64,000 nucleotides of DNA. Source: Branchiostoma floridae. Taxonomy: Eukaryota > Chordata > Leptocardii > Amphioxiformes > Branchiostomatidae. The DNA lies in assembly GCF_000003815.2 (NCBI RefSeq), contig NC_049984.1:17358312-17422311 (forward strand), in the 5' to 3' direction. The notes beneath the pieces are model-generated. The model saw nothing but the letters and a program-made list of their open reading frames with translations, ran no database searches and was not told the DNA's origin. Shown piece after piece: positions 11,601 through 47,400 of the stretch. Both the position numbers and the translations under genes were made by a program. Position 1 is the first letter of the stretch. Every line of letters starts with the position of its first letter.

Positions 11601-14600
11601 ATTGCAAATATTAAGTTTACCATAATCCCATGAAGTAACACTACCAGTGCTTGATAAATCTGTTGCCTAATTCGAGGGTAACCGCTGTCTTGTCCCACTA
11701 TTTGTTCAGACTAGAACTAAATCAGCAGCAGATTCAACTGTGGTTTATACAATCACATGCTATATTTTTCCAAAATGTGACTTTAATATGTATCCAGACC
11801 TGGCCAGCAGCATGATCCCATCCTGGAACTTGTCCACATCCTTCAGCAGTTCCCAGCCTTCCTCCTCATCCATCAACTCCAGGATACCTTCACTCTTACT
11901 CCTGGTCAGGAAGCCCTGCATGAATGTGGGGTGACAACAGTTACTAGATACTTATGACAAACTTTTTTAGGGTCACACAAACAGAAAAAACTCCAAGTAC
12001 TGCCATTGGAAGTATGAGGTTTTCTTTGTTAGTAGAGCCTTCAGTCACCATCATGGTAACAATTAGTGAATTTCATCATAGTACACATGTAATAGTACAT
12101 GTTTAAGAGGATGCATGTGATTAGACAAGCTGAGAGGACTTAACTTTCTGACAGCAAAAATCTGTAACCCATAAAATACAGATATGAAAACTTTTGAAAT
12201 CAAATACACCTATAGTGACCAAAGTCTGTGACAAAAAAAACTGTCGGGGTATTGTTGCCGCTATTTACTTTTCTTTTTGTTTTTCTTTTTTTATATGTGC
12301 AAAAACAAATAAAAAACAAACAGAAATTAGTGTTATACACATCTTCACTTTGCAGTTACTAAAGAGTATACAGCATAAGTCTGAAAAAAAAGATTACTAA
12401 AGTAATAATTGTAGTCCAACTTACCCGCAGGGTTTCAATGGCCTGACCACAAGGATCCAGTTCCTTCTTCTGAGACACAGCACCTGCATCTTTCTTCTTG
12501 GGTTTTGGGGCCGGCTTCTGTTCTGAGCTGGCCTGTTGAATATGATATTATCAAAAGTGAGACTCTAAAATCTATCTTTCACTGATATCATTAATTACTG
12601 TTGTCCATTAAAAAAGATTGAAGATGTAAGAAATTCTGACAAAGACCATTTATAGAATACCTATATATCTTGTGAATTTCTCAATTTCATTCTAAACAAA
12701 GTACCTCAGAAATAACCCCTCTTCTACCCTCTTCACTTCCTGTAATTTCAAAATCTGTGAACTCTCAGATAAGTGAAGAAATCAATAAGCATACAACATA
12801 TTCTTACAGGGAACCTATACATGTACCTGTGATTCCTTGGGTGGGGGTTTGACCCCTGTAGTGGCACCCACCCTGACCATGATGGCAGAGAACAGCCTGT
12901 GGTAGTTACTGATGACAACTTCCTCTGTCTCAGGAACCTGTAAGATCTCAGCAAGGGCACAGGAAGCCTACAGGGGCAGGACAACAATCACACAAATCAT
13001 TCTATACTATCTATATAAATACTATGAATTGGCACATATTAGCGGTAACTTTACGATCATGGTTTTTGTGGTGTCCTATCTCTGTGAGTAATCACACAGC
13101 TACCATTGTGATACTATCAATGGTTGTTTCAATGATGAACTTCAAACACAGCAACCACCTTCTTTCCCCTCATTAATATTGTTACAGTTGGTCTATGTGA
13201 CCTTATTTTTCAATTACATTGTTTCATATACTTCTAGCTCATTCTAGTGCAAAAGTCTACAATTATCATACATGCATTCTTACATATAATTGGGGTGCTA
13301 ATTATAGGAAAGATGTCATAAAAAGATTTTACTGAGCATGCAGATACTTTGTGATCAACTCAGTTTAACCGTTCACACCTCTCCATTTTCAACATTAAAC
13401 AACTTATGGGGGGGGGGCATATCCTTTTGGTTTTTACATTCTTGTATGAGAAATTTGGGTGCTAAGAAACTATTAGTTCTGTGATTTAACTAAGTAACTG
13501 TTACAATGTAGTAGAAATTTGAAATGTACACTCACAGCCATAGGTAGAGCCGTGGCAGTACGCGGAGGTCGTTGTTTCCTGTCCTTCACAGCCTTCTCCT
13601 CGTAGGGAACGTGCCGCGCCATGATCTCCAGCAGGTGGTCGATCAGGTTAGCGGTGAGCTGAGGTTCTGCCGCCAGGATCTTCCAACACTCCACAAGGTT
13701 TCTATGGGATGTGCAAGTCATAAGGCCACACCAATTTAATTTCTTGGTTCACAGATTTTTTCATAAAAAATATGGAGCGAGAGGGCGAAAAATAAAAACA
13801 AAAATTGTAAAATGGTTGGGGTAAAGGTAAGGGCTAATCCAAAACATAAAGAATAAAAAGTTTTCAGCTTGAAAAAAGTACAAAAACACTATTACTGTAT
13901 AGTAGCAGCACCTGTTTGTTGAAAATTACAAAAGTAGTGTCAGTTTTTATGTTTGTTCCATTCTTCATGAATGAAAAATATAACTGCAATAATAATACCC
14001 ACATTTTAAGGGGCTTATAATATAAAGGCCAATTTGCTACACCAGAAAGTTGGTGAATGGTTTCATTAATGGTGCAAGTGTGCTGAGTGGTAATTTTTAT
14101 TTTTATTTTTTTTTTTTCCATAAAATAGGAGCGAGCGAATCCGTGAACCAAGAAATTAAATTGGTGTGGCCTAAGGGTCAATGTCAGGAAACTTCTAAAG
14201 CCTGCATTACACAGTTATTGTAGAGATCTTGATACAGTACAGGTCCAACATTCTGTTACAAGCAGATTCGGCTGCCAGGATCTTCCAACACTCCACAAGG
14301 CTTCTATGTGATGTGCAAGTCATAAGGGTCAATGTCAGGAAACTTCTAAAGCCTGCATTACACAGTTATTGTAGAGATCTTGATACAGTAAAGGTCCAAC
14401 ATTCTGTTACAAGCAGATTCGGCTGCCAGGATCTTCCAACACTCCACAAGATTTCTATGTGATGTGCAAGTCATAAGGGTCAATGTCAGGAAACTTCTAA
14501 AGCCTGCATTACACAGTTATTGTAGAGATCTTGATACAGTAAAGGTCCAACATTCTGTTACAAGCAGATTCGGCTGCCAGGATTGTTCAACACTCCACAA

Positions 14601-17600
14601 GGTTTCTACGGGATGTGCAAGTCATAATAGGAAACTTTTTTTACACAGTTGGGCCACACCAATTCAATTCGTTGGTTCACAGATTTGAAAAAAATATATC
14701 TATATAGTTTTATCAAGTGAATACAGTCATGTTTTCCTCCTTGCCCGTTGCATTTATGATGTCCTCTTGCTATATTCTCACTTTAAAATATCCGCTAACC
14801 AACAAATTAAATTGGTGTGGCCTAATATTTTTATTAGAGATCTGAATACAGGGATTGGCCCACATTCTGTTAAAAGCACTTTGGCAATTCTGATACTTTT
14901 AGTGATACTGTTTTATTATCTAGTGTCCATCATTCTAAAGAATCTTGGTGCTAATGACAGTGAAGTATCATCATTTCATCATCTTGACATCTTAAACATC
15001 TAAAAAAAAGGCTAGAATCAGGTAAAAAAAACACCAATTCAATGACGGAATATAACATCCGTTAACCTTTATTCGTCGAGGTTACCTTTATCCGTCACTT
15101 TAAAAAACGTGTACAACGAGAGATAGAGTGATGCAACATGAATTATTGCTTCAGTTATGCACACATTAGATACTAAGGTTTTCAAAAAAATATCGCGAAG
15201 AACTCAATACCCATGCATGCGAAGAAGACGAGATCAGTTGCCAATCGTCCTCTCTCATGACAGCCGAACTACGTCGTGGGAAGGGGACGTCGCATCCTTA
15301 TCAACAGGAATAGTAAACAAATACTAAACGTACCTTTGGTTTTACCTAATGATGAACAAGAGAGGATGATAAAGTTTATTTTCCTAACCTGAATCATTTG
15401 TGATGATGTGATTTATTTTTAAAAAACGACATGTTCGTGCGACAATTTCTCGCCCTTCGACGAAAATGGAACGCCGCCATCTTTGTTACCCAGAAGGCTT
15501 TGGGTAGCGCTTGACTCTGGAACTTCAGACGGCAAAGGTGGAGTGCTATCTAAAGGACCCGTGTTGCCGTCCCAGGACGGAAAATTACTTGTTGGGACGG
15601 AAAATAATTCACCCACTCTGTCCCAAAATATCTTCATTCATGACATGAAAATACATTTTCGTAAGCTTAAAATGGCAGAAATCGGTCTAATTTTATATGC
15701 AGGCCGCTAGCGCGGTGGACGGAGAACGCATCACGCCCAATTTGTTTCCGTTTTGTAAAAGCCTGAGATGTGTGTGTACTTGTGTATGAACAAGCATGAC
15801 AAGAAAACTTCGGTAATTTTATTCAGTGTTTTATTTTGCATTGCTTATCGGAATCACCCAGCCTTGCACAATTTTAAATCAACACTGACGGGAAAATTTC
15901 AATTCTTTACGAACCTGACTCGGCAGATCAGAGATTATCTTGGTGTCGGAGGCCTCAGTAAACCGTCACACTGGTGATCTTCATAGTTCTACGACCATCG
16001 ACAAAGGAGGTTTTCCCCCTGGTGTAAACTGTAAACAGACGACAAAAACCATATTCTCACCGTCTTCGTCTACGATGTGACGAAACCACGGCCGATTCTT
16101 GCGTCATTTATCTTCAAAAGCACGTTTGCGCTTGAATTTGGGACCGAGCTTGCAGCGCGCAGCTTCCCGTGATAGCAAAGCTCCGCGCCTCTTTGTGATT
16201 GACTTCGTCATACCGCTCTTTCCGCGCCGCTGCTGGCTGTGATTGGCGGAAAGTTGATTGGATTTGTAGAATTATCACGCACGCCATGTCGCATGCGCTA
16301 CTTCAAAAGGCTGCCGCTGGACCTGCTACCATGGTAACGACACGTCTAGCCACATGTACATTTTCCATGCGCGTCTTGTAGTTCACAACTCGCTGCTATT
16401 ACAGCTTACATATATAATTTGCGGCGGAATGTAACGCTGTGTTTCACGGGGAAATGTCGGTCATCAAACTTGTATATTTTTTGCTAATCTTCCACTAAAA
16501 TTATACAGAAATAGCCCGCTGATATAAAATGTAAGTAGGAGACTATTTTCACTAGCAGCTCGCTTCAGGTTTGGCTGGTGGACTGTCGACCCCATTGACG
16601 TGATCCTACCGACAAGTCTAGCCGTGAAAACTATAATTTCTTTCTGCGTAGTTCAGGTTGAGTTNNNNNNNNNNNNNNNNNNNNNNNNNNNNNNNNNNNN
16701 NNNNNNNNNNNNNNNNNNNNNNNNNNNNNNNNNNNNNNNNNNNNNNNNNNNNNNNNNNNNNNNNNNNNNNNNNNNNNNNNNNNNNNNNNNNNNNNNNNNN
16801 NNNNNNNNNNNNNNNNNNNNNNNNNNNNNNNNNNNNNNNNNNNNNNNNNNNNNNNNNNNNNNNNNNNNNNNNNNNNNNNNNNNNNNNNNNNNNNNNNNNN
16901 NNNNNNNNNNNNNNNNNNNNNNNNNNNNNNNNNNNNNNNNNNNNNNNNNNNNNNNNNNNNNNNNNNNNNNNNNNNNNNNNNNNNNNNNNNNNNNNNNNNN
17001 NNNNNNNNNNNNNNNNNNNNNNNNNNNNNNNNNNNNNNNNNNNNNNNNNNTTACTCCTTGTACGGTGTTGGACGACGGACAGGAAGGTGTTCAATTTTAT
17101 CGAGAAATGCACCTTTCTTGATGGATAAAAGAAACAACAACACCAAGTGTCGGGGGGGAGTCGGACCAAAGCTTTTTGTTTCGAGATCGTGTGGTGTCGA
17201 TAGCCTTCTTTGAGGAATGAAATTTTGCTTCTTTTCCCAGGGGCATGCCCCCTAGTTTGGCGAGTCCCCAGCAATGTCGGGGACAGAAATAAATTTCAAG
17301 TTGGAGACAGCACTGGGTGAAAGTCCCTCTGTACTTGGGGCGGAATGGAACGTGCCGACATCGACTTGTCCAAAAAGCTGGTTTTGAGGTGTCACGTAAC
17401 AAAAAGGCGGGAAAATAATGGGACCACGACATTACGGTGTTTTTAATTGTCTTTTAACTTATTTGTGCATGTGTTTGCCTTATTCACCCATTTCTTTTGC
17501 ATTGTTTAGCAGTATTTCATAACAATTTAGAGTGGATTATCCACCGTCAGAAATAACTCTCAGGCCTACGGTCCCCTTTTTCGAAAATGTAAAAGTCCCC

Positions 17601-23600: not shown

Positions 23601-26600
23601 ACTGTCTGTGGTGACCTTGATAAGGTCAAAGGTGTCTGCCTCGTTCATCTTGGGATCGAGCTGACTGAGGCCAAGGTCAAGGACAATTCTATCATTTACA
23701 AACCAGCTTTCATTGCTCATTTCAAGCACCTTTTGTTTTGTATCAAACTACTAAGGGTATTTTGCAAGCCTAATTTACATGTTTTGTTTCTCTTAACATC
23801 TATTTAGAATATAGTGCATGATATTGATATGAGTAAAGACATTGTCGAACAGTTGAAGAAATGATAAACATCAAAGTCAGAAGGATACACCAGTGTGGAA
23901 CAGGCATTCATAGCCAGCGCTCTGGTCTCACTGTGCAGGGCTGACATGCTCTCCACTTTGATGTATTCCTGTAGATTCGAAACAAAATAGGTCCTGGAGT
24001 TACTGCTAGTCTTCATCACATCCAACAAACACAGTGTTAATCCTTTTTACAACAAAAATAATGATAAAGATGTCCATGAAGATTGAAAAGCTAGAGACAA
24101 CAGCAGATTACAAATTGACATTTGAGCAGTCATTTCTCCAGTCAGCGTTCATACACTTTTGCTTTGACATATTTCTGGTCTTGTTTGAAGGTAAACAGGG
24201 TGTTTGTATTTCTGGGTGAGTTTGTGGAAAGCATAACTTGAATAGCTGTGAACTGCTCTGTTAATAAGAAATTTGGTATACGAGTAGGTGTCAGTAAGAT
24301 GGCATGTGGGACATCTAGCATCATTCTATGGTACTGCAGCAGAACAGTTTGTTGCATTGTTACCTGCATGTGCGTAATGAGCTCGCCTCTCCTGCTGAAC
24401 TCAAACACTGCGTTGAGGTGGGAGGGGTGCAGGGCCTTGCCGATCAACTCCACTGCACGGATCAAGTTCTGTTTTACACTGGGGTCCTAAAAAAAAGGTA
24501 TGGTACAGACAGTAATTAAGGGTATGGACCAAATGAGGAGACCTTTATCAAGATCCATCAACCATCACATTTATCATAGACACAAGATACTACATAAGCT
24601 TTACATTAGATCACCTTTATCCCTGGGGTAACTTGTATCCATTGTACTTAAAAACATGGTATTTAGGGGTATTAAGTTGACAGACAGTGGTTAAAAAAAT
24701 TGCAATACTTTCAAAATATTGCAGTGTGCGAAATTACCATCTGTCGACTTCATATCCATAAAAATATGCTGTTTTAAGATACAACAAATAACATCGGTAT
24801 AGCTTATTCTGCAGATAAAGGTAGATGCCTTTTGAGCATTATAGTGGCAGATTTCAGCACCAAGGACAAAAACATTAACTTAGCAGTTACTGTAACTACA
24901 TGTAGGTAGTCAAAACCTTTATTGGTTTTCCTACAACCAAAGAGTTGATTCTATTTACTTACAAACACTTTGAGCACAAACATACGTGTATACATTGTAG
25001 TAGATTAAAGAATAGATGAAAGTTGAATGTCTTCTTCTGGATAAATCAAATTTAATTCAGATGTTTCAAACGACATCCGTCGTTCTTCTTCAGTGAAATA
25101 AAAATAAAAGTTTACAACTCTGCGGAATAAGGAATACTTAATAAAGAATCTTCACAAACGTATTGTAGTAGATTGCAAATATGACCTTCTCGAAGTTGTA
25201 GTTAGTAAAAAATCTACCATTTTTCCTGCAATCAAAGGTCCAGAAAAGTAACTTTAACAGATGATTTTCTCACCTTGACATTGGAGAAATGCGGGTTCAT
25301 GGACCGAAGGATGCTGGACTCGATCCTGGAGGTGACCAGGGTGATGGGAGCGTAGAAGGTCAGATAACCATGGCACAGCATCACTGTACTCTTCACTCTC
25401 TCTACGTCAACCTCTGACTTGTCCTGAAGAGAAGAAAAAAGAGTTCAAGAATTAGAAAGACTTTATCATACTATTCATAGCTGAACGTTCTTGCTTTGTC
25501 GATGTGGAAGAATATGAGGGACAAAAATTAGTTTTACTAGATGCTTCCATTTAACTTTTTTAATTTGAATTGGAACCCAATGTTCATGCTGCATGTGTCA
25601 ACAAAATTTTATGTTTGAAGATTGACAGTTGAAGTGTTAAGGAGGTTTTTGCAGTTTGGACAGTTCTGTAGCACAAAATACATGATTTTGCCATGATGGA
25701 TATTCACCATGGAAACAAATAAACAAAACCATCACAAATATTCCAGGATTCACCGTGCATGTATCACAAATCCCAGCAGAAAATAAGACCTAAAAAACAA
25801 AACAAATGGACAACATCAACATTTATGTTGTCTATTTGTTTTGTTTTCTTAGGTCTTTTCTTTACCTTGAGCAACCCCATGAAGCCAGTAGACTTCCTGA
25901 CCATGTCCTTCTTGGCTACATCCTCCAGCTTGGCTATAACAGTGTCCAGGTGTGAGGAGGCGCAGTACCCCACCCCGATGGCACACCCCTCCCCTCTCAC
26001 CTGATTGGTGTGTTTCACAGTGGAGAACAGCAGGTCCAGGTGCTGCTGGACNNNNNNNNNNNNNNNNNNNNNNNNNNNNNNNNNNNNNNNNNNNNNNNNN
26101 NNNNNNNNNNNNNNNNNNNNNNNNNNNNNNNNNNNNNNNNNNNNNNNNNNNACGTTGCTCAACGTTCATATTATCCGAGCAAGTAACACCAGGACACATA
26201 ACAGGTGAAGTTACCAGCACAAGAGACAGAAGATAAAAGGGCACTGGCATCAATGCAAGTACAGCACTAGACAAGCGTATTTTTCAGTGCTAAATTTTCA
26301 TCTTTGTTGTAATCATCTTCACAAAAGAGAACTGGACACAAGTTGGACCTAAGAAAGGAAAAGCTTAATCACCTGACTTTTCCAAGAAAAAATGGCCTTA
26401 CCCATACACAATAAGATAACCATCAGAGTATGTTCTAAAAGTCAACAGTAATTAACTATCTATTAAGCTAAAATGGAGACGGGGCTGTGGAGGAAGGATG
26501 AAATAAATTTGGTGAGGCGGATCTAGGTCATCCGGCTTGGTCCAGTCTCCTGAACTCAAGTAACTAAGGTCACATGGCTCACCGTCACGCGAGAGGTATG

Positions 26601-29600: not shown

Positions 29601-32600
29601 TTTCCATGTGTCCTACCTGAAACCTCATAGTCCAGCATGTAATCCTCATCATTTGCCTCCCGTTTCTTGTTGGCCAGGTGTGCAGCACAGCGGGCAATGG
29701 AACCAAAGGCTGGTGTGTACTGGGGTGGTCCTAACAGTTCTAATATGTAGGGCCACAGAACCTAGAATGAAAAATTTCTCTCAGGTTAAGACTTACAAGT
29801 ATAACAGTTAGCTCTAACTTAGTATGAAATCAGAATGTCTTTATCTTCACAATTTAAGAAAGGTATATGCATATCAATCAATTTATGCACTTATCTTGTC
29901 TTGCTTATCCTTACGAAGTGGTGTAAAACACAGCTCAACAGAAAGACAGTGAGAGTAATAATATCTTGGGTTCATGTCCAAGCTGGTAAAATTCATCCTG
30001 CAGCAAGATTTGACTATAATTTCTAACACAGTGGAAAAGTTGGACTTACCCATATTATTTGATAGAACAGCAACTATGTTATTCCTTGACAAAGACTGGT
30101 CCTGTTACATTAAATATAGATAGGAAAGTCCAACTTTTCTGTATTGGAAATTTGGAAATAATATTGAACTCCTGCTACAAACACTGTAAGAATGTACTCA
30201 CCCTCTCCATGCACTCTATTGTGGTCGTCACCAGCTGAAGTACGTTCTCACACATAGAACGTAGCATCTCGTTTGTAACAAAGTCTGGATCTGGGGACCT
30301 CTTGCCCTGAAAACAAAAAAGACTTTTACGTCAAACCATGCAGAGGTCAATCTCCACAATCCAATCATTTCAACCTCAAATTACAGTCAAACCTGTACTA
30401 CTGGTAGTGACTGTAAAAGAACAATCTGGCTATTGCAGACACTTTTGGTAGATCTAATCCCTTTAAGTATTTTTGCCACTGGCCTCTAGAGACATTTAGG
30501 ATTCTGTCTATGGTGGCCACTGTGGCCATTTTGTCTGTATCTGCATCTGTATATTTAGGAGAGTTATAGTCATAGACAGACTGACAGTAGTAGTAGTAGT
30601 AGTACAGTGCTGCAGCAGCTGGTTACATTACACATTACACACATAACCTTTGCATATCTAGCTGTAAGTGTTGTTTAAATCCTTCAAATGAGAATGCCAT
30701 GATTACAGTCAAGAGTGCATGGTCACCATACACAGGCTTATTGAAAGATTTGAGAGGATAAGATGCAATCCTGAAGAAACAGGCAGCCCCACACATACAA
30801 TGTTTCTTGCATGATCATCATTTGAAAGAGAAAAATTACAGACAAGCCTGGCAATACTCACATAGTCACCAGTGGGGCTGGTTGGGGTATGGGCCTCCAG
30901 GAAAAGCAGAGTTGGAGAAGTGTGGTGAGTTTTAAAAGCATTCAAACAAGGGTAAAGCATCTATCCTTCACACAAGACTTGAAGGAGACACAAGCATCTA
31001 TCCTTCACACAATATTGTCAAAGAACACGCAGATGACTTCAGTTGTCATTTAGCTTTAGAGTTGTGATGGAGGGACAGTATTATAAACAGGTCAAGAAAA
31101 TAGTCTAAGAATGAATGCAAAATGAGAAGAAGGTGAGAGATACATTGTACTTCTGCATTTGTGCAAGACAACAGTAAAGTTTTCTTCAGAAAGACTTGGA
31201 GAGGTAAATATCTATACTTAACAAGCCTGCAGTCATACAAACTCAAGACAAGAAATATCATACATGTACAAGCTTCATGCAGGGACAGGCACTTTCCGAA
31301 TCAGCCTGGACAGAATTTTTCAAAAAAGACTGTTAGTGGTGCTGTTTATGGTTTCGAAATACCACTTGCATATTCAAGTTTCTGTATTAGTATTAGACAA
31401 TATTTACCCCAACCTGTTCCGGTTCTGTGCTGAGTTCAAGATACATAAACCTTAAGAAGTAGTTAAAGCAGGTGTACTTATGTGTAAAGGTATACAGAAA
31501 AACTATTCTGAGACATGGTATATGGTCCTCTGTGCAGCTGTTGAGACATACAGGAGGACTGTTAGGAAGGGTACACTGTCTGACAGTTGTTAAGACTTAC
31601 AGGAGGACTGTTAGAGAGGGTACACTGTCTGACAAAGTGTAGTTGTTAAGACTTACAGGAGGACTGTTAGGTAGGGTACACTGTCTGACAGTTAAGACTT
31701 ACAGGAGGACTGTTACGAAGTGTACACTGTCTGACAAGGTGCAGTTGTTAAGACTTACAGGAGGACTGTTAGGAAGTGTACACTGTCTGACAAAGTGTAG
31801 TTGTTAAGACTTACAGGAGGACTGTTAGGAAGGGTACACTGTCTGACAGTTGTTAAGACTTACAGGAGGACTGTTAGGGAGGGTACACTGTCTGACAAAG
31901 TGTAGTTGTTAAGACTTACAGGAGGACTGTTAGGAAGTGTACACTGTCTGACAAAGTGTAGTTGTTAAGACTTACAGGAGGACTGTTAGGGAGGGTACAC
32001 TGTCTGACAAAGTGTAGTTGTTAAGACTTACAGGAGGACTGTTAGGGAGGGTACACTGTCTGACAATGTGTAGTTGCTGAGACTTACAGGAGGACTGTTA
32101 GGGAGGGTACAGTGTCTGACAGTTGTTAAGACGTACAGGAGGACTGTTAGGAAGTGTACACTGTCTGACAGTTGTTAAGACTTACAGGAGGACTGTTAGG
32201 GAGGGTACACTGTCTGACAATGTGTAGTTGCTGAGACTTACAGGAGGACTGTTAGGGAGGGTACACTGTCTGACAATGTGTAGTTGCTGAGACTTACAGG
32301 AGGACTGTTAGGGAGGGTACAGTGTCTGACAGTTGTTAAGACGTACAGGAGGACTGTTAGGAAGTGTACACTGTCTGACAGTAACTGTTGTTAAGACTTA
32401 CAGGAGGACTGTTAGGGAGGGTACACTGTCTGACAATGTGTAGTTGCTGAGACTTACAGGAGGACTGTTAGGGAGGGTACACTGTCTGACAATGTGTAGT
32501 TGCTGAGACTTACAGGAGGACTGTTAGGGAGGGTACACTGTCTGACAGTTGTTAAGACTTACAGGAGGACTGTTAGGGAGGGTACACTGTCTGACAGTTG

Positions 32601-35600
32601 TTAAGACGTACAGGAGGACTGTTAGGAAGTGTACACTGTCTGACAGTTGTTAAGACTTACAGGAGGACTGTTAGAAAGTGTACACTGTCTGACAGTTGTT
32701 AAGACTTACAGGAGGACTGTTAGGAAGGGTACACTGTCTGACAGTTGTTAAGACTTACAGGAGGACTGTTGGGAAGTGTACACTGTCTGACGATGAACTC
32801 CACCATCAGTGTGCCCCCTTCCAGCTCCAGGTACTCATGATGCGCCATGGCGATGATCACCTGGCTGGACATCCGCTTCACCTGGGGAAAAATCAGCAAC
32901 TCTTGTAAGCATATCTGAAGAATTGCTGTTGCATCATGTAGGCACAACGGGTGCATGTTTGGACCAGAACCCTGAACCTATTCAAAGCACAAACCATTTT
33001 CAAATTTGGTATTTCCATTATCACTACAGTGATCATGATCATAGAATGAAAAATGGAGTCGAGATCTGGAAGGTTTTCTTTTCACATCAAATGTATGTGA
33101 ATTAATGGGTGGGTGTGACAAGTTTTATCTAGATCTTACAGTAGTATATGGACCATAATGCTTTCTACACTATGTCGATGAGTTAATTACTGTTTTATTT
33201 TGGGTGCAGTTATGGTGACCATACATATCCTTTACCTTGTTGTTGTTTTCTGTCAGGATGGCCTGAAGACCTGATACCACCAGGGGTTTCTTGTCCTCCA
33301 TATATGGGCCTTTATGCAACACAAGAAGAGCTCAAGAGGTCAAGTCAAGAAAGTACAGTGATTCTTGGAGACAGACTAAAATAGTTACAAAAAAGTTTCA
33401 ATGACTATTAATTGTACAGAGTATAATGCTGCTACTGTAGCTATCATTAGTTTTATTTGATGTAGTAGATTTACAAGATGATAGTAAGATACAATGAAAC
33501 ATGTCCAAGAGTGAATACCCATTTATACACAAACATACTTAAAAGCTTGTAGAGTGTATACCCCATCTGTACACAAACAAACATAATAGCTTGTAAACAG
33601 GTCCTAGAGTTTATACCCATCTGCACACAAACAAACATAAAAGCTTGTAGATTGTGTGAGATGTGTCAGAACATGTCATAGCTGTCTACCTGCTGAGTTG
33701 ATGAGATGTTTGATGATCTCCAGAGTTCCTATCCTGTTCTTCTCCGAGTTAACAAGCCCGCCGCTCTCCAACTTCTGCATCAGGAACCCGATAGTTCTGT
33801 CTGAGAATGACCGAGCTGTGTGGAGGGCAAAGAGCAGAAATGTTTGTAGGAACAGAAGTTGTAGCCAGAGTCCAGCCTTGTTGTGCTTATAGTAACTCCC
33901 CATGTGCCTTCGGGGAGCAACTAAAAGCACAACTAGGCTGGACTCCAGGCTACAGAAATTGATTCTTTCTATCCTAAACATTATAGTTATACTATAACAG
34001 AAAAGTTAATCATGGCTTTTATACAATGAATTGATGCATGAAACAACTTTTCCTACTAGTCATAAGCATAGATGTCAACAACTTACTAAGAACGGCAACT
34101 GTCCTTGGTGCTGAAAAGGTGCTACAGTAAAGGTATTTTGCTACCACTTTTATTTCCCAGTACATACTATTTACAGTATCTGGTATTTTACCTCTGAAAG
34201 TTCATATAAAAATATATCCAATATTCCAATTGTATGCAAAGGAAAGAAAAAAAAACAATCTCTTGCTTACCAATTACTGTAAAGCATCTCAGCAGTTCAT
34301 TGTGATTCTTCACAGACATCGCATTGTTGAAGTCAGGCTGGGCACAAACCTGATAGAATGATACAGTGTGTAATAATACTATGTTACAGTAACAATTGAC
34401 GCTGGGGTATCACAAAAAATGGCTTGACAGTGCATGAAGAATAACAGATTAGCCAGAGTATAGAAAGGCACAACATTGCATTGACATGGGAAACAGATCT
34501 CATTATCTGCTCATTGGAATAGCAGCACAGCCTGCTAAGCATATCTTTTTTGTGGTCTGCTTTTCAAAAGTAAGAAGTAGTGTCTTTCCTTAAGATTACA
34601 TTTAACTTGACCAGATCAGTTGCACTGTATCCTGGGATAGAGAATATTGATTGTAACATACCCCGGGATGGAGAGAATTCAGTAGCATGTCGAGCTGCGG
34701 CTCCAGAATGGTGCTCTCTTCTACTGTTGCTGCATCCAGGATCATGCACAGACTCTGGAATATAATGAAGGAACTGAGTATAGAGATTTATACATAATGT
34801 ACAATGTCATTGTCACTATCATTAAGTGCGATATAAAAGTCAAGTACAAGTACATAGACTATATACATTTGTATTCCTGGCCCCAAGTCCCTCAACCTGG
34901 CATGGTCATTGGGGGGACAAGTAAGACCTTCACAAATATACCTGGCCACAAAAGTGTGCTAGTTTAAAACAAAAGGTGCTTTACTTTCCTGTGGCACACA
35001 TGCACAAATGAATACATTCAAGCCTATTGCCCAGCTTTGATTTTATTAGGCCACTATAGATATTGTTGGTATGAAGTTGGAATCATGATCATTTCCAGTA
35101 CTGTTAGGTACAACAGCATAGGTAAAAGCTGACAGCCCAATATAAAGTTCTGTTTTTGATACACAATCCAACTATATCTCTACAGTAACCAATTCCTTGT
35201 CGAACTATGTGGTTTTATGACATTGACCTCTGACCTGTGTGACATAGAAGGGTTCAGGCTGTTTCTTGTACAGTCCCAGAATGCCCTGCACCAGCATAGT
35301 CAGCTGTTCCTCCAGCTTGTCCCGAGACAGGATGTGGCTCATGTGACCAACCGCCTCCACAACAGCCAGCCGCAGCTGTGACATGGGGATAAGTCAGCAT
35401 TAAACGTGTCTGAATTTTATGTCGTGTAGAAATTCAGAGGGGCGAGTAAGAACAGAAAGAAACAACATGCCCCCTACCCGGAATCGAACCGGGGTCGGCA
35501 GATCACAAATCACGAACGCTATCACCGTCGCCACAAAAGCACTAGTGCATTTGGGCAAGGACGATAGGCAGTACTTAAACACCACTGTTACACTACTCCC

Positions 35601-38600
35601 CCTTTTCTTCAAGATTCGTCCTCGAATCTCCGAGTTCGACATCCCTGTGTGGCACATACTAGCCTGTTACTCACAGGGCCAGGATTTGGCGCTCTCACCG
35701 CCAAGGCCCGGGTTCGATTCCCGGTGTGGGAACCATTGTAGAAATTCAGAGGGGCGAGTAAGAACAGAAAGAAACAACATGCCCCCTACCCGGAATCGAA
35801 CCGGGGTCGGCAGATCACAAATCACGAAAGCTATCACCGTCGCCACAAAAGCACTAGTGCATTTGGGCAAGGACGATAGGCAGTACTTAAACACCACTGT
35901 TACAGTTGTATGTGACTGGTACAGTTCTTTTGTGTTTTTGTGTATGTTATCACAGAACACAAAAACAATTTCACCAGGTTGGTAGGTCAAAGGATAGTAG
36001 AGTTTTCTTTTACAAAGCCAGTTAATTTTAACTGCTGATGTTTCGATGTCTAATAGACATCTTCTAGGAGTTCTGCTTCTATATGTAGTCAATATAGGTG
36101 GCGATTTTGTGGCGAGAACACAATCCCAAGTTTGAACCCCCTTACCCTTAAGTTCTTGTGTGTTTTTGCATACTAGTATGTGATCACAGGTACATTTTGT
36201 GTGTTATGATTATCTTGTATATTGTCCTATATTAGCACACTTACATTGCCTGATACATTACCATATTTTCCTGGTCAAATTTCACACTATACATTTTCAA
36301 GTAGGTACCACAAGCAGGCATCAAAGACAGGGTTCAACTTTATTTGACTTGTCGTTTGACTTTAAAAATGTTTTTCTGCTAAGCACTTTTAGTACTTAAA
36401 ATCACACCACTACCAATACACCAACCCCCTGGGCTACAGAAAATGAGATGGGTGCTGCCCTATATATAAAAAAGTTTGGGATGGTTGTTTAACCCACCTT
36501 AGGTTCCTTGGACTGCAGCCACACTTTGAAAAACGTCTCGTAGGCAGAGTAGATCTCACCAGAGAACATCTCCTTCTTCACAGTGGGGTCAGGGGCCTTG
36601 TCAATGTTAGCAACGTAGTCTAGGATGGCCTCGCTGAACTTACCGATAGCTGGACAAGGGTGTATAAAAACCATGATGTACATTGTAGTAAGCATAGATA
36701 GATTGCTTAATCAATGTACACTCAGGTAACATCAAGTTGTTGATTTACAATTTGGAGAACACAGACTAGTAGTAGTAACTCCCTAATCATGTACCGGGTA
36801 TTTGTACTATATAGAGTATAGTCAGGGCTCAAAATTCATTTTTCGGATTAGATGCACTGGTGCACCCAGCTCAAAAAATTGGGTGCACCAAAAAGTTTTG
36901 GGTGCACCACTTCAATTTAAGTAGAATGTCAGAAAAACCTAATAACAAAACTTAGTTACAAGCTTTCAAATTCTTAAACAACTACCATGACAGACATTTT
37001 TATTATCTTTCTAACACTTAGATGTCAAAAATATGATGTATACAAGTATACTTGATATCTTTTCATACATAAACCTAATAAAATATTTAGGTGCACCCTG
37101 TGCACCCATTGAAAATAATTGGGTGCACAGTTCCAATTTTGGGTGCACCTGGGTGCACATGCACCCAGTATTTCGAGCCCTGAGTATAGTACATGTAGTA
37201 CCATGTAGCTTGATATAGGTAAAAAATCTTATGAAGCATTGATTCATATATTAATGATTCATATACTGGTCAGATCTCAAATCATATACCAAATAGAACT
37301 TGCAGGAGAATACAAATGTGGTATAAATTATGTTTCATTTTGTGAACTCCACCTTGCAATAGTTACTTGTATTGCAGTATCTGGCTGCAAAGCAAAGTGT
37401 TAGGCATAGGGACAGACCCAGACAAATTTGGGAGGGCAACATCGTGTGATTTAACATAGTGTCTTACCATGAGCGAAGACCCATTTCATGTTGTCATGTT
37501 TGGCCATCCCCAGCATGGGCAGCATGGTGCCTAACACTGCCGTCAGGAATGGAACCATGCCATACACTGCACAAGAGATGGAATCACATTACAATTATCA
37601 TCTGTCTTGCAGTCCCTTCTGTTTGTAGCAAGATGGCGGACGTGTTTTTGCAATGATCTGGCCATTTTTATCTCGAATGTACTAATAAAATAGGTTGACA
37701 CATTACAGTTACAGTAGTGAACTTCAACAGGTGGATCTTCAACTGCACTTTATAGGACTGGAACATCTCATTGTCATGATGCACCCAGCATGGGTCTGTT
37801 TGAGTATCAATGAAATATCAATGTCAGTCTATATACAAATGCAACTGTTACATCCCGCTAATAGTATGCTAAGTTACACACAGAAATACTGTTTTGGGCT
37901 TACTAGTAATTCACTGGCTACATTTATAGCCATGTGGCACTATCATTAACATTTTCCCTGCTATATATATACGTAATCACGTAACCAATACAGATTTATA
38001 TTTGGGTGCCAAATGGCTACCTCTGACTCAGAGTACTAAAGGTTAGTCACATACATCTACATGATTTAATTAATTAAAGGAATCTATGTGATGTCTACAA
38101 ACTTAAACTACAAAGTACAATGAAATGGGCAGATCATTGACTATTCAAATTCCACAATTTTTCCTTGTATCATTTTAAATGGGACTCCTGGAAGAAAAGT
38201 GATATATCACTAATAGAGATCCCTATAAACCAAACTATTAAAAAACGGAAATTTATTTCTATGCAATATGTCTTAACCCAAGGACAACAGTAAAGACACT
38301 TGCCATTGGCTGAGGCCAGACTGCCCAGTGTCTGCACCACGAAGAAGTGAGGCATGACGCCCGGCTGGAACTTCTGATGGAGACCTTCCATCACCTCATT
38401 ACAGAACCTTGTTCCCATGGCAACCACCACGTTACTGGCTGCAGTCTGCCAGTCAGGCACAATCTCCTGTGAAGGTGTTACAGCAAGATTAACATCAAAT
38501 GGGTTTTCAGCTTCACAACAAAATGAATCTTATCTACGAACACTTTGGTAATCAGGGCTTGATGAACTCTACTATTTCAAACAGGGCTGTCTCAAGCTTT

Positions 38601-44481: not shown

Positions 44482-47400
44482 TCAGGGGGAGGTCTGGATG
44501 TAGCTGACCTTCAGGGTTCCGTAGTAACATGCCCGGATCAGGAACAGGATCCCGATGATGAATGCACCTGAAAATCAACAAAATAGAAATGGCTCCATGC
44601 CTAAGGCATTGCAAAAAATGCAGGTCTTTAAATATCAAAGGAAAAAGTAAAGCAATTTAACTTTTTAAATCAGTCAACCCCAAATCATGCTTGCTGTCGA
44701 TGACAAAGGAAAGAGGTATAAGCGTTCAGTTGCCTGTAGGCTTAAAAAAGCTAGACATGTAGTTTGTGAGCATGACTGAGGTTTAGCACAGAAGCACATA
44801 GCAGGGCATGTTACATGTACAGATGTTGATACATGTTGGTAGACCCCCATCCCCAGAGCTCCATTATGTAACATAACATGTACATCAAACACAGAGTAAA
44901 GCCTTAGACACTTACCAACCCATGCAAAGTAGATCCCTCCTTGTTGTCTTGCCAACTCATAAGTTCCCACCTGGTTATGAAGATGACAGTGTTAAATATA
45001 TACAGCTGCACATCACTTTTGACTATTCACCTAAACATTTGTGCAAAGCTATGGAGGCAAAGATGCTATTATACATTATAACAAATTTACTACTGAATGT
45101 TAGTATACATGCAAGCTATTCTTGAAATTTACATTTTGAGTATCAGAAAAAACATTTACTTCCAGATTCCTTCTACAAATCTGAACAAGAGAAACATTAA
45201 TTTCCAGATTCCTTCTACAAATCTGAACAAGGGAGACGATAATCTAATACATCATGTTACGCACTTAAATCTTTTTTCTTTGTACCTTATTATAGTTTGG
45301 GTGCATTTGTGGCCCTATTCTCCTAAATAAATTTAACTTCGAAAATCTTGCAGTATATTTCTTACCGTGACCCCGATTCCTGCTAAGATGAAGATCATGC
45401 CCAACACAACACAGATGGTGCACTTCCTTCTGGCATAACTGCTTCCGACAGACGACCTACAGTATAAGACAGGAGTCACAACGTTATCATAGTGCCTACT
45501 AGCTATCCAACCTACTATTCATCCTATTCTAGCTCCTTTCTACTCCTATGATCGTTTCCCTGCCAAAGACATGTAGTCTGACATTGGTTCATACAGAAAT
45601 GACTCACATCTATATATTCCTGTAAAATACACACAAGAGCTCACATGAAGATGTGCACCAATACTTACACTTTTCTGCAATGAGGACACCTTGACAGGGC
45701 ATTTGTTGTGGATGTAAACTGTAAATAGATAAAAGATGATCAGTTCAGTTAAAAGAACTGTTATGAAAACAATTATGATACTAACAGAAACAGAGGTTCA
45801 GAAAATGCTAAAACAAAGTCTGAAGAATATGGCAAAGCAAATAATTAACCAGTTTTTCTATAATTAGTAACTAGTGGAAAATGACTCAGATTTTCAGCCA
45901 GGTCATCCCTTCTCTTATTGATAAGTATGCTGAACTTATTTCTAAATGTCCTACCCTTGCAAGACAGGGAACACTGGACACTAAACCGGATCGTAATAGT
46001 GATAATTTCTACATGATAATGATTTCTAAATGAGCTGGTTTTCTCAAAACTCACCATGAAGGTCATACTGCAGTGTCCACAGATAACTCTGGTCCCACCT
46101 GCAGGAGGGATGGGAGGGGCCATGGCTCCACCTCCGCCATCCAGGCTGATGATCCTCTTACTGTCAATAACAACAACAACATCAACAAATCTTAGCTTGA
46201 TGGCTCATCTGTGTTCAACAGTTGGTATCATTTATTCTAGAGCAGGAGTGAACCACAATTTCCAACACAAATGGAAAATGGGACTTTTCGACTGAACAGC
46301 ACCAGTCTTTGTCAATGAATGAGCAATTTGCTGCTTCCTTCCTTGACTAACGTTGTATTCTTCTTGCATAAAGTAATGTCATCTATGTATAGAAGTTACA
46401 GATCACTCATTCCTTACCAAAGACTGGTGCTGTTCAGTTGTAAACTTCAGTGCCATTTTCCCTTTGTGTTGGAATTTATAGTTTCATCATTCATCACAGT
46501 AAAAAAAATATCTTTACACTATATCATTATTTCACATCATGGAGTTCAAGATAAAGTAAAGGAAGACATGTACACATGTCTAAAGATTGACATATTTTCT
46601 AACTTCTCACCAGTTTGGTCTTGGGCAAGCGATCTTCCTGGAGGTGCTCTTACAGATCAAGAGACAGTTGCATGGGCAGCGCACATACTTCTTGCCAGGG
46701 GGAGCTGTTTTGATGGGCTATATGATAGGAAAGCAAACAAAATGGGTTACTCTCACCTCTCAAATAAACGTACCGGTACGTTTATTTTTTTCCGCCTCAA
46801 AATCCACCCGGTACGTCCTTATTTTAGACGGTACGTTTATTTTTTTTTTCAAATTGGGGCTTTCTTTACTAACCAGGAACCCCAAAAATATTGAAAGTTT
46901 GGTATTTTCTGCCCATATTTCCGCTGTATTTTTGCTTAATATTCACTATTTCGGACGAGGCATCGCGGATTTCCATGCCGCTAGCGCTATGACCCAAACA
47001 TAACTAGGGATGCGTACCGGTACGCAGGACCAGTTCTGGACTTGCAAAAACGTTTCGGTTCAGGTCCAAAAATACCGGAACACAAGTGATTCGGCACTGG
47101 ACTCGTAAAAAAATATATCCTTTTCGTTTTAGACCATCTTTAACCTTCCAAAAATCTTGAAATGTTGCGCTGAACAAAGACGAAAACATCGAGGTCACAT
47201 GCTACACACACAGTCGCTTACTTCCGTAAATTCTCTATCAAAACACAGAAATTAACCACCAACCAAACAAATTAAAAAGTTACCAATACTTTTCCACTAT
47301 TTTTCACCCGTAGTCAACTTGTTTTAATGTTCCAGCAACGAAAAAATCATTCCAAAACAAAGCATAGCGATCAATCGGCTCGAAAAGATCCGCCATGTTG

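Follow-up and report, generated by a model that had tools for sequence, protein, structure and literature searches.

A probable mirage minisatellite carrying 24 splice donors behind an exon assigned to the MROH family in Branchiostoma floridae

What becomes of an exon when its end, splice donor included, has been copied over and over into the intron that follows? The question is raised by a 64,000-nt stretch of the Branchiostoma floridae genome (contig NC_049984.1, positions 17,358,312 to 17,422,311; hereafter the window, whose coordinates are used throughout), the minus strand of which carries at 31532..32791 a minisatellite of 24 head-to-tail units, each with its own donor, beginning within an exon of a gene of the Maestro HEAT-like repeat (MROH) family. 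The explanation in which we place high confidence is a neutral minisatellite, seeded from the exon end and expanded by unequal exchange, with exon definition picking the first donor.

The array and its 24 splice donors are real. Tandem Repeats Finder (TRF) returned 24.0 copies with a period of 56 (or 161) over 31532-32791, and unit-by-unit listing resolved each unit into the final 33 nt of the exon, encoding VRQCTLPNSPP, followed by 13-23 nt of intron start containing the donor. Units are 49 or 56 nt long, save one of 55 and one of 46 nt, and their intron tails measure 16 nt (ten units), 23 nt (eleven), 22 nt (one) and 13 nt (one); the last unit, lacking a natural end, was set at 56 nt (tail 23). 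A donor motif is present in all 24 units, as GTAAGT in 20, GTACGT in three and GTATGT in one, with a donor-to-donor spacing of 46-56 nt across the array. Nineteen of the 24 translate as VRQCTLPNSPP, two carry an S, two an H and one an R; 15 units keep both the peptide and GTAAGT and are at that level interchangeable with the real exon end. A further stretch, CCCTCCCTAACAG, was found in 11 of the 24. GTAAGT occurs 20 times in the 1.26-kb array as against 25 times (0.40 per kb) in the remaining minus strand of the window, an excess indicating that the array donors are not a product of chance. These results agree with the preliminary description of the locus, which had taken the unit to be the last 11 exon codons plus the donor and had counted 24 donors, 20 of them GTAAGT and the rest GTACGT or GTATGT.

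A dispersed repeat was also considered and set aside, a search of the genome (513,431,437 bases in 431 contigs) having given one match, the window itself, although absence of other matches is no proof of rarity. Over 283.5 kb around the window a scan for periods of 20-250 and a minimum of 2.8 copies, in which the first of any overlapping TRF rows was retained, gave 24 tandem arrays. One of these, the MROH array, has GTAAGT or GTGAGT in its unit consensus, the comparison having been made on consensus sequences without an exon map for the other 23.

The exon that seeds the array (32759..32881, minus strand) has 41 codons and phase 0 at both ends, and is followed by a GTAAGT donor at 32753..32758 with its GT at 32758-32757. 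Alone it matches the Pfam profile PF23210 with 31.5 bits, above the cut-off of 27 bits, and removal of its last 11 codons, which contribute 13.1 bits, lowers this to 18.4. On the same strand, the next exon (30202..30306) has 35 codons, the acceptor TTTTTTGTTTTCAG and the donor GTGAGT, and is followed by an exon at 29617..29761 (VLWPYILELL...) with the donor GTAGGA. Upstream lie a 74-nt exon (33236..33309, ending in ...LTENNNK, donor GT at 33235) and, before it, an exon at 33690..33815 (RSFSDRTIGFL...). Taken singly, the exons at 29617..29761 and 33690..33815 fall short of the cut-off, with 24.6 and 21.8 bits. When the seed exon is joined to the two that follow it, PF23210 positions 154-273 are matched without a break at 109.1 bits, and addition of the two upstream exons extends the unbroken match to positions 92-273 at 168.5 bits. 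This continuity indicates that use of the first donor would yield the expected protein, in line with the earlier placing of the real donor at 32758-32757. Since the conserved MROH profile includes the exon end, the array would derive from that end and not the reverse, and the seed exon is, on the profile matches, genuine and older than the array. PF21047 matches were also present downstream. Matches of the joined exons to unrelated families were below threshold (for example PF10566, E=0.02; four such families in the five-exon join) and were taken as chance. The Pfam label of the PF23210 domain is 'MROH2B-like', and on these domain matches the host is assigned to the MROH family, not to one paralogue. 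The introns flanking the seed exon are 354 nt long upstream (to 32882) and 2,452 nt long downstream, the latter holding the array.

Structures of this kind have been named before. In PMC3087553 the name 'mirages' is given to tandem duplications in amphioxus that resemble minisatellites and take in an exon-intron boundary; they are stated there to have been first reported in Adh3 (Canestro et al. 2002) with units of 10-72 bp. Among globin genes the same source places one on the acceptor side of exon 2 in BflGb6, where units of 150-160 bp number 6 or 3 according to haplotype, and one of 157 bp on the donor side of the same exon in BflGb9, and it describes edge units as escaping homogenisation. 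In the MROH array the unit spans an exon-intron boundary, the authentic boundary forms one edge (copy 1) and, as judged by the distribution of identical units described below, the interior evolves in concert with the edges excluded. By these features of its sequence, the array is in all likelihood a cephalochordate mirage minisatellite. The novelty implied by the title of the preliminary description is unsupported because mirages already have a description and a name in this group of animals; the array is of a known kind and is notable for its copy number. No report of the MROH array was present among the matches listed for minisatellites and splice donors, intron gain and MROH1 in one open-licence library, which does not imply absence from print.

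Examples resembling the published globin mirages are present in the same genome assembly, in keeping with its origin in Branchiostoma. A globin search gave nine matches from 14 candidates scored, some globin genes falling outside this count as PMC3087553 gives 15. Boundary-spanning repeats were observed in two of the nine, and both the side of the exon and the length of the unit match those of BflGb6 and BflGb9: at locus L032 (954-1601) a 158-bp array of 4.2 copies lies across an exon acceptor, as in BflGb6, and at L028 (1642-1904) an exon end with its GTAAGT donor is copied 157 bp downstream at 88.7% identity, as in BflGb9. No boundary-spanning repeat was found in the other seven matches. An 81-nt repeat, 116 nt apart and downstream of the exon match at L031, and a 17-bp array upstream of the exon match at L027 were left uncounted, boundary spanning being undemonstrated in both. 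L027 and L028 lie head to head 42 kb apart; BflGb5 and BflGb9 are placed about 40 kb apart and head to head in the draft genome, with trace data casting doubt on the orientation (PMC3087553).

The units of the array are closely alike, with a mean identity of 94.3% over a 45-nt core. An identical twin exists for 13 of the 24 full units, and every one of these lies within copies 4-18 (P=3.7e-4 for the span under random placing), those without a twin being copies 1-3, 8, 17 and 19-24. When the 45-nt core is compared, six units (copies 1, 3 and 21-24) remain without a twin. A 151-nt stretch recurs exactly at an offset of 216 nt and a 149-nt stretch at one of 210 nt, which indicates that copying has involved several units at a time. 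The pattern is the usual one for unequal exchange with the edges left out, and the suggestion that the copies arose recently or are homogenised is upheld by the twin distribution. The accompanying remark that the codons are almost unchanged reflects the approximately 94% DNA identity of the units and does not demonstrate selection on the codons.

Under the favoured explanation, tandem duplication would have copied the last 33 nt of the MROH exon along with the first 16-23 nt or so of the intron, donor included. Unequal exchange, the presumed mechanism, or slippage would then have expanded the array to 24 units while shifting multi-unit blocks. The first unit would serve as the working exon end. 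Later units lie inside the 2,452-nt intron and, by published rules and precedents, would normally be removed with it to leave a 123-nt exon, because exon definition works across the exon and selects the nearest donor. In minigenes carrying two identical CAG/guaagu donors 52 nt apart, exon definition led to exclusive use of the upstream donor, and weakening of both donors caused skipping of larger exons while smaller ones kept to the upstream site (PMC9225289). Given the 46-56 nt spacing, the 354- and 2,452-nt introns (365 nt in the minigenes) and the likeness of 20 of the 24 donors, splicing would be expected to settle on the first donor and to leave the array as silent intron. The data of PMC3087553 suggest that mirages leave regular splicing undisturbed, and the MROH array most likely does the same.

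Use of donors 2-24 would lengthen the exon from 123 nt to between 172 and 1,330 nt. Translation of the resulting isoforms placed an in-frame TAA (32720..32722, minus strand, read 32722-32720) after 12 sense codons, as the 13th codon past the real donor, in 23 of 23, bearing out the earlier claim that any distal donor leads to an early stop. Rare use of a later donor would therefore give an early-stop transcript, expected to be degraded. With the peptide and GTAAGT retained in 15 units, shortening of the array by exchange would in most cases still provide the exon with a functional end, and the array may be tolerated for that reason. RNA accessibility was examined as a basis of donor choice and offered no explanation, the modelled unpaired probability (9-mer) being 0.008 for the real donor, 0.002-0.092 over the 24 donors and 0.014 as a median for other intron sequence.

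Several points weigh against this explanation. Modelled U1 pairing of the real donor is -5.4 kcal/mol, where the donors of the two following exons reach -11.5 and -10.7, and a donor that is weak on its exonic side in this model could allow some leakage or exon skipping. The proximity rule itself rests on human data: the minigenes of PMC9225289 are human and exon-defined, and the human survey given there favours the downstream donor in about 60% of competing pairs overall, a preference for the upstream donor (60%) being confined to pairs of near-equal strength. Within the array the largest mean distance to other units belongs to interior copies 10 and 14 (3.78) and not to the edges, the values for edge copies 1 and 24 being 3.13 and 3.17. 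Finally, third codon positions are the more diverse (0.115 vs 0.011, one-sided column permutation P=0.031), an excess that hints weakly at coding constraint and is largely due to two columns.

These observations lend themselves to other explanations. Were distal donors used in proportion to copy number, array length would tune MROH expression through transcripts subject to nonsense-mediated decay (NMD), as the preliminary description had proposed. The stop included by all 23 distal donors, retention of GTAAGT in 20 of 24, the modelled weakness of the authentic donor, the approximately 60% success of downstream donors in the human survey (PMC9225289) and the use of downstream repeat donors in human IFI6 (PMC4526556) are consistent with such tuning, but identical strong donors 52 nt apart gave exclusive upstream use in minigenes (PMC9225289), published data suggest that mirages are neutral for splicing (PMC3087553) and distal use would give exons of 172 to 1,330 nt. 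A tuning or NMD-feeding role is thus unsupported by these sources and copy-number tuning is unlikely. The array might otherwise act as a bank of micro-exons, supplying a 24-nt in-frame insert (CTLPNSPP) or 7-nt inserts between the real exons. As a candidate acceptor, the pyrimidine-rich CCCTCCCTAACAG stands ahead of TCCTCCT in 11 of the 24 units, and TAAC branch-like motifs lie 32-39 nt before its AG in five of seven units examined. The 7-nt micro-exons proposed earlier would not, however, be in frame: in the one unit tested, inclusion of 7 nt (TCCTCCT) or 28 nt shifts the frame and reaches a stop. A 24-nt micro-exon (ACAG|TGT...) does keep the frame in the one unit tested, with a PF23210 score of 162.7 as against 168.5 bits, but no pyrimidine tract was seen at its acceptor in that unit, and the distance from donor to next AACAG is just 42-49 nt (seven units examined). 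A micro-exon bank is very improbable.

Selection on the units themselves can be set beside these readings. If coding or splicing constraint kept the units because they rotate through the exon position, the third-position excess and the interchangeability of 15 units with the real exon end would both be accommodated. Variable columns are nevertheless distributed alike between the exon part (6/33) and the donor/intron part (3/12; Fisher P=0.68), three of the six variable exon columns change a residue, and the C at unit position 21 of the exon copy (copy 1) occurs in none of the other 23 units. Coding constraint on the units was rejected on the equal variation of the two parts, the third-position excess being judged weak, and a selected array is accordingly improbable. 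A related proposal, which we regard as unlikely, is that of a renewable reserve of exon ends, in which units would enter the first slot by unequal exchange, selection acting there would keep peptide and donor in most units and make the gene immune to length change, and weak use of later donors would entail a length-dependent loss to NMD. Copy number might instead be inflated or collapsed by assembly, the draft BflGb6 mirage being seemingly aberrantly assembled (PMC3087553), but the MROH units are heterogeneous, no N run lies within the array and the genome search matched one place only, making an artefact very improbable. The neutral minisatellite with first-donor use is retained in preference to all of these.

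A number of other features were observed in the window and its surroundings. Within an MROH intron, direct repeats of 168 bp (35425-35592 and 35737-35904) are 99.4% identical and 312 bp apart; on the minus strand a tRNA-like stretch, GGGAATCGAACC, lies just after the first and a purine run before the second. The pair resembles a small non-autonomous LTR (long terminal repeat) element, similar to a terminal-repeat retrotransposon in miniature (TRIM). A run of 100 N at 26052-26151, probably a scaffold gap, lies beside an MROH exon match (about 26057-25857), and a second N run occupies 16665-17050. Matches to Transmembrane protein 55A (PIP4P) at about 46049-46720 mark a gene upstream of the MROH gene on the same strand. 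At 14138-14825, a 151-bp x 3 tandem repeat (14172-14627) lies between inverted arms of 36-37 nt, a third arm copy being present at 14790-14825; the whole is an element whose palindromic ends enclose a tandem array. The window opens (1-922) with 4.5 copies of a 206-bp satellite at its edge, and two further arrays of the same period lie within 7 kb outside it. Elsewhere, at G000:C6:17559306-17560726 and 17598879-17600849, two clusters of three minisatellites each lie about 39 kb apart, with units of 54 bp and 41-42 bp recurring in both, a pattern suggestive of the duplication of a repeat-bearing region.

The MROH array adds a high-copy case to the mirages of amphioxus, which have been proposed as a route to new introns (PMC3087553). 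It also offers a natural test of spliceosome choice among 24 near-identical donors 46-56 nt apart. Use of the first donor only would lend support to the rule of cross-exon proximity well beyond the human cells in which it was measured; use of later donors would make array length a splicing variable.

Comparable arrangements are known outside amphioxus. Human IFI6 (6-16, G1P3) carries a minisatellite with a 12-bp unit in about 26 copies. Its multiple splice donors were reportedly described by Turri et al. in 1995. Introns from tandem arrays are likewise said to have been described by Zhuo et al. in 2007. In both IFI6 and the MROH gene an exon-end minisatellite supplies repeated donors, but two downstream repeat donors are reported in use in IFI6 (PMC4526556), whereas the MROH array is known from donor motifs alone. 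Where internal tandem repeats fall at an exon-intron boundary, new introns or new patterns of splicing can arise (PMC2812944); the cases there are human paralogues in segmental duplications, whereas no new intron is seen in the MROH array. Intron gain by a single tandem duplication resembles the array in that both cross a boundary and inherit its splice signals; the former makes a new intron, whereas the latter places many copies of a donor inside an existing one. The closest likeness is to the mirages, with which the array has boundary-spanning units in common and of which the same genome carries globin-like examples. It differs from those known in lying in another gene, with 49/56-nt units that fall inside the 10-72 bp of Adh3, and its 24 donor-bearing units outnumber the 6 and 3 of the BflGb6 haplotypes.

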